Source: Candidatus Crickella equi (GTDB lineage Bacteria > Bacillota > Clostridia > Peptostreptococcales > Anaerovoracaceae). Taken from it: 64,000 bases of DNA. A model generated the notes under the pieces. The model ran no database searches and was not told where the DNA came from. It saw nothing but the letters and a program-made list of their open reading frames with translations. The position numbers were made by a program, and so were the translations under genes. The stretch covers positions 1 through 64,000 of the forward strand of contig JAGHUP010000006.1 in assembly GCA_018064755.1 (NCBI GenBank), read 5' to 3'. This document shows positions 41,207 to 59,457 of this stretch, one piece after another (position 1 is the first letter of the stretch; each line of letters begins with the position of its first letter).

Positions 41207-41413
41207 AAAAAAGATGCCGTTAGGCATCTTTCAAAAGTTTGAGAAAACACTCGACCTGGTCTTTGACCCCACACTTGCCTTAACCCGGTTTCCGGAGGAC
41301 TTACTTCTAAGATACGCCATGATCACAGTGGCCTCTTGCTCACTGCTTACGTGGATCCCTTTGCCCGTATCTGGCTTGGACTTGCAACCACGAACATGCT
41401 TCTCAAGTGTTTA
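41207..41413 (-). ncRNA. structured ncRNA, 6S RNA (ssrS)-like candidate
   Basis: ~200-nt intergenic RNA: extended -10 TGATAAAAT overlapping the comFC stop, rod-like pairings (TTGAGAA/TTCTCAA, AGATACG/CGTATCT, CAGTG/CACTG), small CCGGAAACCGG hairpin on the 3' side, and intrinsic terminator AAGATGCC-gtta-GGCATCTTTTTT. Confidence 0.5.
41211..41230 (-). terminator. intrinsic terminator of ncRNA candidate
   Basis: AAGATGCC-gtta-GGCATCTT then TTTTTTATT on minus strand. Confidence 0.8.
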
Positions 41414-55920: not shown

Positions 55921-57288
55921 TTATAGTTTAATAATCTTGTTTGCCAGTTCGGCGTCTTCTTGTGAGTGTGTAATTAGAAGAACGGTTTTGTCCTTGGTTC
56001 CTGATAGCCAGAGGTTCTTAATTACATCAGAACGTGTCTTGGAGTCAAGGCCACGGAATGGTTCATCAGCAATGAGAAGTCCTGCATCATAGAGGAAAGC
56101 TCTTGCCATTGCTACTCTGTAGCTCATGCCACCACTTAACTCGCCTGGCAGTTTGTAGAGTTCGGTGGATAGGCCGACCGCCTTGAGGGTGGATGCAATG
56201 CGAGAGTCATCCGGATTGACTATTGCAAGGTTGTCATAGACATTGAGCCAAGGCAGCAATCTGTCCTCTTGGAACAGATATGATGCGGTCGGCCCCGTTA
56301 CCCTTACAGTGCCGGAATCCGGAGTCTCGAGCCCAGCAATAATTCTTGCTATTGTTGTCTTGCCGCTTCCGCTAGCACCCATAATTGCTGTTACTTTGCC
56401 CGGCTCGAGCGTCATATTGAAATCCTTCAATACGACCTTCTCGCCGAACGACTTGTTAATACCAGTCATCTCTACAGCCGCCGACTCGCTGGCTACATCA
56501 GCCATTTGGCCAGCAGCGCCCGCGCCCTTTGCCACCTTGCTATACTCATATGCATGAGGTCCGAGCAAAGCAACCAATTTCTTAATGAGTCGCTCGAATA
56601 CCACGCTGATGAGAATCAGAACAACTACATAAGCGAAGAGCCTATCCGTAGTCAGATAATACTTGGCATTCATCAGCTCATAGCCAAGTGAAAGCTGAGG
56701 AATGGACAGCACTTCCGCAGTTACTATTGCTTTCCATGACATACCCGCAACAAGACTCATTGCTGAGCGGAAGTGCGGATAGAGCGATGGCATATATACC
56801 CATCTAACAAGTTTGCTTCCTTCAATCTTATATATCTTAGCCATCTCGAGCAACTTAACATCCATGCTATCTAGTCCCGCCAGCAGATTGGTATACACAA
56901 TCGGGAAGCACATTATCCAGCACACGAGAACAGGTACCGAGCCTGCCGACATGAGCAGAATCATATAAATCGCAACTGCCATTATCGGAATTGTCTTAAA
57001 TAGCGAAACTGGGAGGGACAGAACGTCGCGTACCCAGTGCCATTTGTAAGCACAGATTGATAGCAGGGTTCCCGCAATGAGAGCAAGTACCATTGCTGCC
57101 AGGCATCTTCCTATTGTTGCAAGCGCATCCATATAGAATGTGCCGTCTACCAGCAGTGCAGCTAGAGCTCTAACTGTGTCCATTGGGCCTGGCAGCAGCA
57201 GAGTATTGCCCACAATAAGGGCAAGTACTTCCCACAGTACCAGCCAGAACACAGCTATTAATGACCATTTCTTCCAATTATTTTTCAT
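55921..57288 (-). CDS. fused ABC transporter permease-ATPase (SsuC/SsuB-like)
   Basis: 455 aa; N-terminal BPD permease then Walker A GASGSGKTT, LSGGMSYRVAMARA, DEPFRGLD. Confidence 0.9.
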   Translation of the reverse strand: MKNNWKKWSLIAVFWLVLWEVLALIVGNTLLLPGPMDTVRALAALLVDGTFYMDALATIGRCLAAMVLALIAGTLLSICAYKWHWVRDVLSLPVSLFKTIPIMAVAIYMILLMSAGSVPVLVCWIMCFPIVYTNLLAGLDSMDVKLLEMAKIYKIEGSKLVRWVYMPSLYPHFRSAMSLVAGMSWKAIVTAEVLSIPQLSLGYELMNAKYYLTTDRLFAYVVVLILISVVFERLIKKLVALLGPHAYEYSKVAKGAGAAGQMADVASESAAVEMTGINKSFGEKVVLKDFNMTLEPGKVTAIMGASGSGKTTIARIIAGLETPDSGTVRVTGPTASYLFQEDRLLPWLNVYDNLAIVNPDDSRIASTLKAVGLSTELYKLPGELSGGMSYRVAMARAFLYDAGLLIADEPFRGLDSKTRSDVIKNLWLSGTKDKTVLLITHSQEDAELANKIIKL

Positions 57289-57291
57289 ATA

Positions 57292-58251
57292 TTATTTAAT
57301 TCCATAATAGATTTCATCTCCTGGAACTTTACCGCCAACAGCAGTAGGATCCATCTTGAACAATGTATTATAGAAAGGTGTCAGGATGTCCTTAGTCTCC
57401 TCAGCGGAGAGGAATACCAGCAGGTCATCGTCGATAACGGCTTTGCAGATGTCCGGGTCAGGAATGATTCCGGCTTCAACGATTTTGTTAACAACATCAT
57501 CTGACTTTGTTTGAACTGCTGTAACTGAATCCATTACCATCTCGAGGAGATAGTCAACATCTTCAGTTCTCTCATCTACAAAATCTTTCCTTGCAATAAC
57601 GATGCCCATTGGGAGTCTCTCCCCTGTCATCTCGTTCCATGCTGCATCGAGATCAATCGCAGCTCTTATTGCCGGATTCTTACTGATAATAGTTGACTTC
57701 ATTGGTTCAGGCAGAAGTCCGATAGTACCTTCAGTTGCCATTACTTTCTGGGAGACAGCGGCATGGTCCTCGAGCCACTGAACTTTGACATCCTTATTTA
57801 TTTCCAATCCGGCGTCAGCCAAGAGTGCCGCAAGAACATATTCAGGTGTTCCGCCCTTGCCGGATGCAACAACAGTCTTACCATTGAGATCAGCAAGCGA
57901 CTGAACCGTCTGACCATTCTCTACGATGAAGAGTCCGCCGTTCACGATGTCGGCCAAGATGCGCACACCGCCGTTTGTTTTGGCATCGAGCAGTGCTCCC
58001 ATATTAGAAGGTACGCAAGCCATGTCGAGTTCACCAGCAACCAGCTTCTGAACAACATCAGTAGGCGACTGGAATATCTCCATGCTAATCTTCTCGTCGT
58101 CCTGAAGATTAATCAGGCCCATTCCGGTAGGTCCAACCAGTGCGCCAATACGAACTTGGTCACTAAGGTCCTTACCGCCGCAAGCAGTCATTGCAAGCAT
58201 CATGCCCAGTGCGAGCACAATAGCGACCGCTTTCTTAATGTACGATTTCAT
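57292..58251 (-). CDS. ABC transporter substrate-binding lipoprotein (SsuA/NMT1-like)
   Basis: lipobox MTACGGKD; GALVGPTGMGLI; GLFIVENGQTVQSLADLNGKTVVASGKGGTPEYVLAALL. Confidence 0.9.
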   Translation of the reverse strand: MKSYIKKAVAIVLALGMMLAMTACGGKDLSDQVRIGALVGPTGMGLINLQDDEKISMEIFQSPTDVVQKLVAGELDMACVPSNMGALLDAKTNGGVRILADIVNGGLFIVENGQTVQSLADLNGKTVVASGKGGTPEYVLAALLADAGLEINKDVKVQWLEDHAAVSQKVMATEGTIGLLPEPMKSTIISKNPAIRAAIDLDAAWNEMTGERLPMGIVIARKDFVDERTEDVDYLLEMVMDSVTAVQTKSDDVVNKIVEAGIIPDPDICKAVIDDDLLVFLSAEETKDILTPFYNTLFKMDPTAVGGKVPGDEIYYGIK

Positions 58252-58263
58252 TTAATTCCCTCC

Positions 58264-58509
58264 TTACTTCTTAGAATAAACTGTCTTCGTACTAACGCCC
58301 GGCAATGCTCCAAGTTTACCCGAGAGTGCGCTGATGTCATCCATCGGCGCGTCAATTACAACACTGATAACACTAACGTCTTTCTTGTCATACGGAATGC
58401 CCATACGTCCCTTGATGTTCTCGCCAAATTCACCGAGCAGCTGGTTAACAGCTGGTGCAGAATTGCGATCTTCGACGATGATTCCGATTATCGCCAATCT
58501 TGTTTCCAT
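58264..58509 (-). CDS. TM1266-like iron-only hydrogenase system putative regulator
   Basis: 81 aa METRLAIIGIIVEDRNSAPAVNQLLGEFGENIKGRMGIPYDKKDVSVISVVIDAPMDDISALSGKLGALPGVSTKTVYSKK. Confidence 0.85.
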   Translation of the reverse strand: METRLAIIGIIVEDRNSAPAVNQLLGEFGENIKGRMGIPYDKKDVSVISVVIDAPMDDISALSGKLGALPGVSTKTVYSKK

Positions 58510-58526: not shown

Positions 58527-58636
58527 GTAAAAAAGGTGCGCCTAATGAAAGGCGCACCATAAATAACGGTTAATTAATGCATTTGCCTTTCCCCTCAGTT
58601 AAACCTTCGGGCGTCAGTACAATTTTGTATTAATTA
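58527..58636 (-). promoter_or_regulatory. candidate riboswitch: P1-closed aptamer-like leader plus intrinsic terminator
   Basis: P1 TAATTAATACA/TGCATTAATTA (58626-58636 with 58571-58581) enclosing CTGACGCCCGAAGGTTTAACTGAGGGGAAAGGC, then terminator GGTGCGCC-(8)-GGCGCACC-TTTTTT just upstream of the 58509 start. Confidence 0.55.
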
Positions 58637-58644
58637 TTATACAA

Positions 58645-59457
58645 CTATTTCTGTCTCTTGTAAACAAACCAATATGCAAGTCCTACGGCAGCTCCGCCGA
58701 TGATGTTACCGATTGTAACAGGCAGGAGGTTGGCTGCAAAGAAGTTGCCCCATGTGAGGTTTGCCATATCTGTGCCTGCTGCAACTGCGATGTCCACATA
58801 AGCAGGTACCATCTTAGCAAAGAGTCCAGCTCCAATGTAATACATGTTGGCAACACTATGCTCGAATCCACAGAGGACGAAGAGCATAATTGGCCAGAAA
58901 ATGCCGAGGATCTTGCCGGCAGCGTCCTTAGCTGCCATGCCGAGCCATACGGCGATGCATACGAGGAAGTTACAGAAAATGCCCTTGAGCAGTGCATCGC
59001 CGAAAGTCATTGAGCATTTGCCCACTGCTGTAGCGATAACGCTGCCGGCCATTCCGCCGTCGAATAATGACAGTTGATGGCTGAATACTGCTCCTGCTGC
59101 AACTATCATACCTCCTATGAAGTTACCGAGGTAGACAAGAATCCAATTGCGCAGTACCTGAGGAATTGTTACTTCCTTCTCTGCCAGCGGAATTACCAAA
59201 AGGCAGTTGCCTGTGAAGAGCTCGCTTCCGGCAATTACTACCATGATGAGTCCAGCTGGGAAGATGCAAGCTCCGAGGAATTTACCAACGGAGGCGAGCG
59301 GTACGGATACTGCCGCAGTGGTTGCGCCGAGTCCGGCGAGTCCAATGAACATGCCGGCGAGAACAGCAAGCACGATCATCTTGCTAGTTGTCAGCGCACA
59401 CTTGCCCTTTCCTACATTTATATAATTTTCAGTTATATCTTTTGGTGTGTTTATCAT
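58645..59457 (-). CDS. formate/nitrite transporter family protein (FocA/NirC-like)
   Basis: 270 aa; FLGACIFPAGLIMVVIAGSELFTGN; RNWILVYLGNFIGG. Confidence 0.92.
   Translation of the reverse strand: MINTPKDITENYINVGKGKCALTTSKMIVLAVLAGMFIGLAGLGATTAAVSVPLASVGKFLGACIFPAGLIMVVIAGSELFTGNCLLVIPLAEKEVTIPQVLRNWILVYLGNFIGGMIVAAGAVFSHQLSLFDGGMAGSVIATAVGKCSMTFGDALLKGIFCNFLVCIAVWLGMAAKDAAGKILGIFWPIMLFVLCGFEHSVANMYYIGAGLFAKMVPAYVDIAVAAGTDMANLTWGNFFAANLLPVTIGNIIGGAAVGLAYWFVYKRQK

Follow-up and report, generated by a model that had tools for sequence, protein, structure and literature searches.

A terminator-coupled candidate riboswitch associated with [FeFe]-hydrogenase H-cluster genes in Clostridia

Among the described regulatory RNAs, the terminator-coupled riboswitches with small aptamers, such as the fluoride, preQ1 and guanidine-IV riboswitches, come closest to the RNA analyzed here. 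They share with it a short conserved structured domain, a coherent regulon, and the use of one aptamer strand for alternative pairing with the 5' arm of the terminator, but our RNA is a hairpin with an internal-loop core and not a described pseudoknot. The guanidine-IV riboswitch and its Gd4v variant consist of two hairpins joined by a pseudoknot and control exporters, transaminases and acetyltransferases (PMC9788692), and they are, like our RNA, small and terminator-linked with gut Firmicutes among their hosts (PMC9788692). No guanidine exporter, transaminase or acetyltransferase gene was found among 83 genomic contexts of our RNA, which argues against its belonging to the guanidine-IV/Gd4v group.

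The second system of relevance is the TM1266/hydE-hydG-hydF maturation operons, in which the RNA sits across Clostridia. The window, by which we mean the whole analyzed stretch of 64,000 nucleotides from Candidatus Crickella equi, differs from these operons in that the maturase genes are missing and an ABC importer follows TM1266. We are not aware of any riboswitch for the maturation of [FeFe]-hydrogenases. A search of the open full-text literature, with subscription papers, supplements and preprints outside its scope, found no riboswitch for [FeFe]-hydrogenase genes, and no such RNA was found in the riboswitch and RNA-discovery papers PMC9481103, PMC9788692, PMC8632094, PMC6429828, PMC7266159 and PMC10043782. 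The original prediction had failed to match the core to a riboswitch class, in agreement with our cmscan search against Rfam 15 (4227 families), which gave no match at this position, be it in the window or among 14+14+16 homologous loci, divergent ones included. Even at permissive thresholds the best match, EGFOA-assoc-1 with 20.6 bits against a threshold of 224.5 bits, was spurious. As detailed below, the RNA family is real and widespread, and in every computational test applied it behaves as would be expected of an H-cluster gene switch that is coupled to a terminator.

Leader layout and conserved structure

The RNA and an intrinsic terminator are located between focA (58645-59457) and the TM1266 operon on the minus strand, with a sigma-70-like promoter immediately 5' of the structured RNA. 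All leader elements quoted in the original prediction were recovered, on the minus strand, and the features of the locus are as follows (R1 and R2 are the covariance models described below).

58664-58636, minus: sigma-70-type promoter TTTACA-17-TATAAT with 11/12 consensus matches (-35 box at 58664-58659, -10 box at 58641-58636)
58583-58622, minus: aptamer-like domain of about 40 nt, based on covariance-model scores (R1 70.9 bits, R2 67.3 bits) and pair counts
58617-58585, minus: core CTGACGCCCGAAGGTTTAACTGAGGGGAAAGGC
58622-58617 with 58587-58583, minus: P1, UUGU-A-C with G-GCAA
58616-58612 opposite 58591-58588, minus: internal loop, UGACG opposite GAAA
58611-58609 with 58594-58592, minus: P2a, CCC with GGG
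Enclosed by P2a, minus: inner part of the aptamer-like domain, with a 2x2 GA/GA loop, P2b and loop
58585-58591, minus: GAAAGGC, serving as P1 3' strand and predicted antiterminator 5' strand, based on the nascent-RNA fold and on enrichment of its complement in the terminators of homologs
58580-58575, minus: GCAUUA, continuation of the predicted antiterminator 5' strand
58547-58559, minus: UGGUGC-GCCUUUC, predicted antiterminator partner, overlapping the terminator 5' arm and loop
58558-58535, then T6/U6 to 58529, minus: intrinsic terminator GGTGCGCCT-TTCATT-AGGCGCACC (stem 9, loop 6)
58264-58509, minus: TM1266-family gene (TIGR03959, PF21699), first of the operon, start codon at 58509
57292-58251, minus: gene for an SsuA/NMT1-fold lipoprotein substrate-binding protein
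55921-57288, minus: fused ABC permease-ATPase gene (PF00528 + PF00005)

The predicted terminator in front of TM1266 is thus present, and it is the only one between the RNA and the TM1266 start codon, where 0.3 would be expected. The whole-leader fold is more stable than shuffled sequences (z -3.1), and the assignment of the first gene to the TM1266 family is secured by a TIGR03959 score of 110.6 bits, well above the equivalog cutoff of 60.8. The same window contains a raiA RNA at 41241-41404 on the minus strand (RF03072, 122.8 bits against a threshold of 101.3). The raiA RNA is a structured RNA whose function is still unclear.

It is clear from a comparison with two genomes of the same genus (Mogibacterium sp. 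and Candidatus Crickella caballi) that the RNA is conserved far above chance, since 40-48 nt of it are found at 96-100% identity while the corresponding binding proteins are only 51-54% identical to that of the window. The compact conserved core proposed originally is kept to 100% in the two closest relatives and is found across Clostridia, so that a lack of conservation, which would have spoken against the proposal, was not observed. The long A/U-rich P1 that was thought to enclose this core, TAATTAATACA/TGCATTAATTA, had to be abandoned: the letters are present, but the pairing is absent from the same two relatives, and the promoter's -10 box overlaps with its 5' half. The conserved P1 is instead a short bulged helix, UUGU-A-C / G-GCAA. 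In the aptamer consensus a bulged P1 (N-G-U-W-C / G-GC-N') is followed by the internal loop and by a P2 helix split by a 2x2 purine-rich loop. Nearly invariant among the unpaired bases of the internal loop are U (100%), G (99%) and A (97%) in its 5' strand as well as AA (100%) in its 3' strand.

Divergent homologs show compensated changes in P2 (CCC/GGG, UGC/GCA, CAU/GUG and CCG/CGG). In an alignment of 32 RNAs, 88.3% of the cells pair, compared with 77.4 in shuffles and 37-52 for slid helices, and two-sided changes occur in 9 of 12 base pairs. When 74 RNAs were aligned the covariation score was 0.506 (0.224 in shuffles, at most 0.196 for slid helices), and 10 of the 12 pairs showed two-sided changes, including all six of P2, although the P2 counts lean to the model because it already included P2 when the two alignments were fitted to it. 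P1 lay outside the first covariance model (R1), and its N-N' pair is found as C-G, U-A, U-G, A-U and G-U. Past three pairs the P1 pairing is weak, with roughly half of the 74 sequences unable to form the outer pairs. Collectively, these data establish a structured domain of 5' leaders that is conserved and covaries, as expected for a riboswitch. In one genome (G046, L004 / L092) the real copy of the core is directly preceded by a duplicate of its first part, ATTTGTACTGAC.

Distribution and associated genes

A pattern scan of about 85,000 species genomes gave 17 good matches, all of Clostridia type, and TM1266 was found downstream wherever the contig reached far enough; a scan of viral contigs gave no matches. 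Other pattern matches, among them those in Rhizobium, Burkholderia and Spirosoma, lacked the wider motif and were taken as chance (L063, L064, L066, L067, L069, L071, L074, L076, L078, L079, L085, L087, L088, L090 and L093), as was a single match with a similar ACTGAGGGGAAAGGC before an unrelated secreted protein (L016). The pattern-scan matches were used for building covariance model R1, which was run on 391 Clostridia genomes, and the top six matches beyond the window were all located upstream of TM1266-hydE or TM1266-hydG. A second model, R2, run on the same 391 genomes, found relatives of the RNA at 53 loci with E<=1e-3, all of them adjoining TM1266, hydE/hydG/hydF or an SsuA/NMT1-like ABC importer. 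R2 matches at E>=0.004 had no hyd genes near them and were treated as false (for example L271, L274, L276, L278, L279, L286, L288, L289 and L291). A structure-aware descriptor (score >=22) was positive for 61 of 153 TM1266-upstream regions, a few of which had been fetched via the RNA itself, compared with 0 of the 153 regions in reverse complement and 1.0 per 153 after shuffling.

The first identified gene after 83 RNAs was TM1266 in 72 cases, hydG in 5 and hydE in 3, and the remaining three were the binding protein, an ABC permease, and an aspartase-like gene followed by hydF. This is a functionally coherent gene set of the kind that riboswitches control, and the wider regulon with hydE, hydG and hydF points to maturation of the [FeFe]-hydrogenase H-cluster. 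Two side observations concern individual loci. The genome G384 has a second RNA of lower score (27 bits), in L267 (G384:C35), which precedes the aspartase/fumarase-like gene and then hydF, and one may speculate that ammonia from this enzyme serves the azadithiolate ligand. L062 and L070, from two different Oscillospiraceae-type genomes, carry a near-identical insertion between the terminator and TM1266, which begins with the palindromic TGAAAATAAATTTTCA and resembles a small mobile element.

The frequent position before TM1266 raises the question of whether the TM1266 protein itself binds the RNA and autoregulates its own operon, possibly in combination with an intermediate of the pathway. TM1266 is annotated as a putative regulator of the iron-only hydrogenase system, it is the predominant first gene in the count above, and it is encoded somewhere in all 53 of 53 RNA-positive genomes, so that a protein sensor fits too, although this occurrence is expected under riboswitch and protein-sensor models alike. 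However, the RNA is not confined to positions before TM1266 but also precedes hydG, hydE or the importer where TM1266 is not adjacent (L262, L282, L287 and L043), and is therefore not simply a TM1266 autoregulatory site. Furthermore, it is present at no more than a third to 40% of the sampled TM1266 genes (at least 43 of 130 when the loci were sampled regardless of the RNA). We regard autoregulation by TM1266 as unlikely.

A riboswitch could also respond to a general signal, such as Fe2+, tyrosine, cysteine, SAM or a redox-linked metabolite, and not to a dedicated H-cluster compound. HydG and HydE use tyrosine, SAM and iron, and small aptamers for ions and amino acids are known, which makes such a signal conceivable. 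The regulon, on the other hand, consists only of H-cluster genes plus the importer linked to hydrogenase, and no genes of iron, tyrosine, cysteine or SAM pathways were seen among the 83 contexts. A general signal is in our view rather unlikely.

The original prediction also named an objection to itself, that the hairpin might be only the focA terminator with a separate promoter downstream and a non-regulatory upstream sequence. The separate promoter downstream of focA does exist, and focA lies directly upstream in the window as well as in two relatives. The other part of the objection fails on the homologs, because the covarying RNA with its terminator recurs without focA, behind many different upstream genes, and the reading as a mere focA terminator can be regarded as refuted for practical purposes.

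Terminator coupling and the proposed switch

Of 63 RNAs, 55 are followed by a terminator. GCCTT, which is complementary to the invariant AAGGC, occurs in the 5' arm or the loop of 25 of these 55, where 1.75 would be expected; it is absent from about half of the terminators. The bases 3' of AAGGC pair with those 5' of GCC at -5.0 kcal/mol within their own locus compared with -3.3 kcal/mol when loci are swapped, a difference reached in 0 of 2000 permutations with kinship among the loci uncorrected. The complementarity of AAGGC and GCCUU, together with the co-varying flanks, indicates that P1 and the antiterminator are mutually exclusive, which in computational terms amounts to an expression platform exclusive with the aptamer. 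In L072, L075 and L084, which have the window-type core, the terminator arm appears by eye to match, as its complement, the 5' strand of the core UACUGACGCC instead.

As long as the 3' arm of the terminator has yet to be transcribed, the nascent RNA of the window is most stable as the antiterminator (-20.3 kcal/mol), formed by GAAAGGC:GCCUUUC and GCAUUA:UGGUGC with P2 kept and P1 open. In the full transcript, aptamer plus terminator reaches -26 to -31 kcal/mol compared with about -22 kcal/mol for folds with the antiterminator. The proposal of a terminator-coupled, aptamer-like RNA thereby gains support from homologs, covariation, a conserved choice between terminator and antiterminator, and a coherent regulon.

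In the mechanism we propose, a ligand would hold P1 closed and occupy the AAGGC strand, the GCCUU segment would then pair into the terminator, and transcription would stop when the ligand is plentiful. Without ligand, AAGGC would pair with GCCUU as an antiterminator, allowing the whole operon (TM1266, binding protein, permease-ATPase) to be expressed. The probable ligand is a compound of the H-cluster pathway, a metabolite or an intermediate, that the importer would bring in as well. Extra copies of the RNA within operons abut the hydG start (L183 373-429, L226 1448-1503, L128 300-355 and L232 824-880), and in these P1 looks reduced. Their AAAGG is probably the Shine-Dalgarno sequence, making them a possible translational version of the switch, in which closure of P1 would block translation via the Shine-Dalgarno strand. 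Since the closed aptamer would be incompatible with expression in all arrangements, we infer an OFF switch.

The opposite direction, an ON switch where the ligand favours readthrough over termination, might be suggested by the fact that no final state is more stable than aptamer plus terminator, so that readthrough might need help. Such a switch is difficult to reconcile with an antiterminator that takes bases needed by the conserved P1 and that is already the ligand-free nascent fold; in addition, importer and biosynthetic genes would usually be expected to be repressed by their product. We consider ON logic quite improbable. All in all, the leader likely represents a new class of cis-regulatory RNA for H-cluster genes, and most likely a small-molecule riboswitch with OFF logic.

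The importer and its link to [FeFe]-hydrogenase

The transporter was originally described as SsuA-like, which is correct for the fold but not for the family. The model of the binding protein (pLDDT 90.8) has the SsuA/NMT1 fold, shared with SsuA/TauA/NMT1/PqqT-type binding proteins, with a TM-score of 0.74-0.75 to 3hn0 and PqqT, whereas its score against the SsuA family (TIGR01728) is 46.5 bits and falls far below the cutoff of 163.5. It also differs from the SsuA/TauA/NMT1/PqqT types by its hydrogenase-linked gene context. As PqqT, a PQQ-binding protein, is among the best structural matches, there is a precedent for cofactor uptake by this fold.

Twelve genomes that encode the binding-protein family of the window (G000, G011, G046, G027, G053 and G477-G483) were examined in detail, and [FeFe]-hydrogenase H-domains were found in 12/12 and the RNA in 11 of them. 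In the same 12 genomes no HydE or HydG was found at E<=1e-5 and no HydF over its cutoff. In contrast, HydE, HydF and HydG are all present in G484-G487, where the RNA precedes hydE-hydG-hydF. The hydA gene lies immediately upstream in 5 of 30 binding-protein loci, once with TM1266 in between. These results link the importer to the hydrogenase system and suggest that it supplies something that HydEFG would otherwise make, and the occurrence of RNA, importer and [FeFe]-hydrogenase in genomes without HydE, HydF and HydG implies that this may be an H-cluster precursor. The 99% complete genome G253 encodes HydE and HydF and a HydG-like protein only below the threshold; in its locus L265 (G253:C1) the RNA precedes a permease-ATPase-binding protein operon without TM1266.

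A simple rule that the importer replaces HydEFG is weakened by the distribution within the genus of the window, since most of its genomes lack HydG as well as the binding protein. Among 46 genomes, including G000 and with many of the surveyed genomes being incomplete MAGs, HydG was found only in G030 and G037, and a relative of the binding protein is mostly absent (G005, 99% complete, L334, is an example), while the [FeFe]-hydrogenase is full-length in most of them and frequently part of a HydABC-like cluster. Remote homologs of the binding protein are also found in HydG-positive genomes, and G054 and G056 have both HydG and the binding protein. The HydA of the window genome (L319 / L340, G000:C13) keeps MPCTAKKFE and MACPGGCVNGGGQP, has TSCSPGW in place of TSCCPxW, and carries an extra Cys in LSSCKSPQQ.

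A more far-reaching reading is that the RNA senses an H-cluster precursor and that the importer takes up the same compound from neighbouring cells, enabling gut Clostridia without maturases to assemble active [FeFe]-hydrogenase. Such a precursor may be an iron-carbonyl-cyanide or diiron intermediate from HydG/HydE. We put this forward tentatively, as an idea that is unlikely to hold.

It is a puzzle how bacteria that have H-cluster hydrogenases but lack HydE, HydF and HydG mature these enzymes. An RNA switch offers a direct handle on how cells sense the H-cluster pathway, and, being linked to hydE, hydG and hydF, this RNA is a bench-ready probe for a metabolite of the pathway and a means of tracking its level in cells. 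With the same RNA shared by the maturase operons and by the importer operon in maturase-less genomes, the puzzle of H-cluster maturation is made testable.
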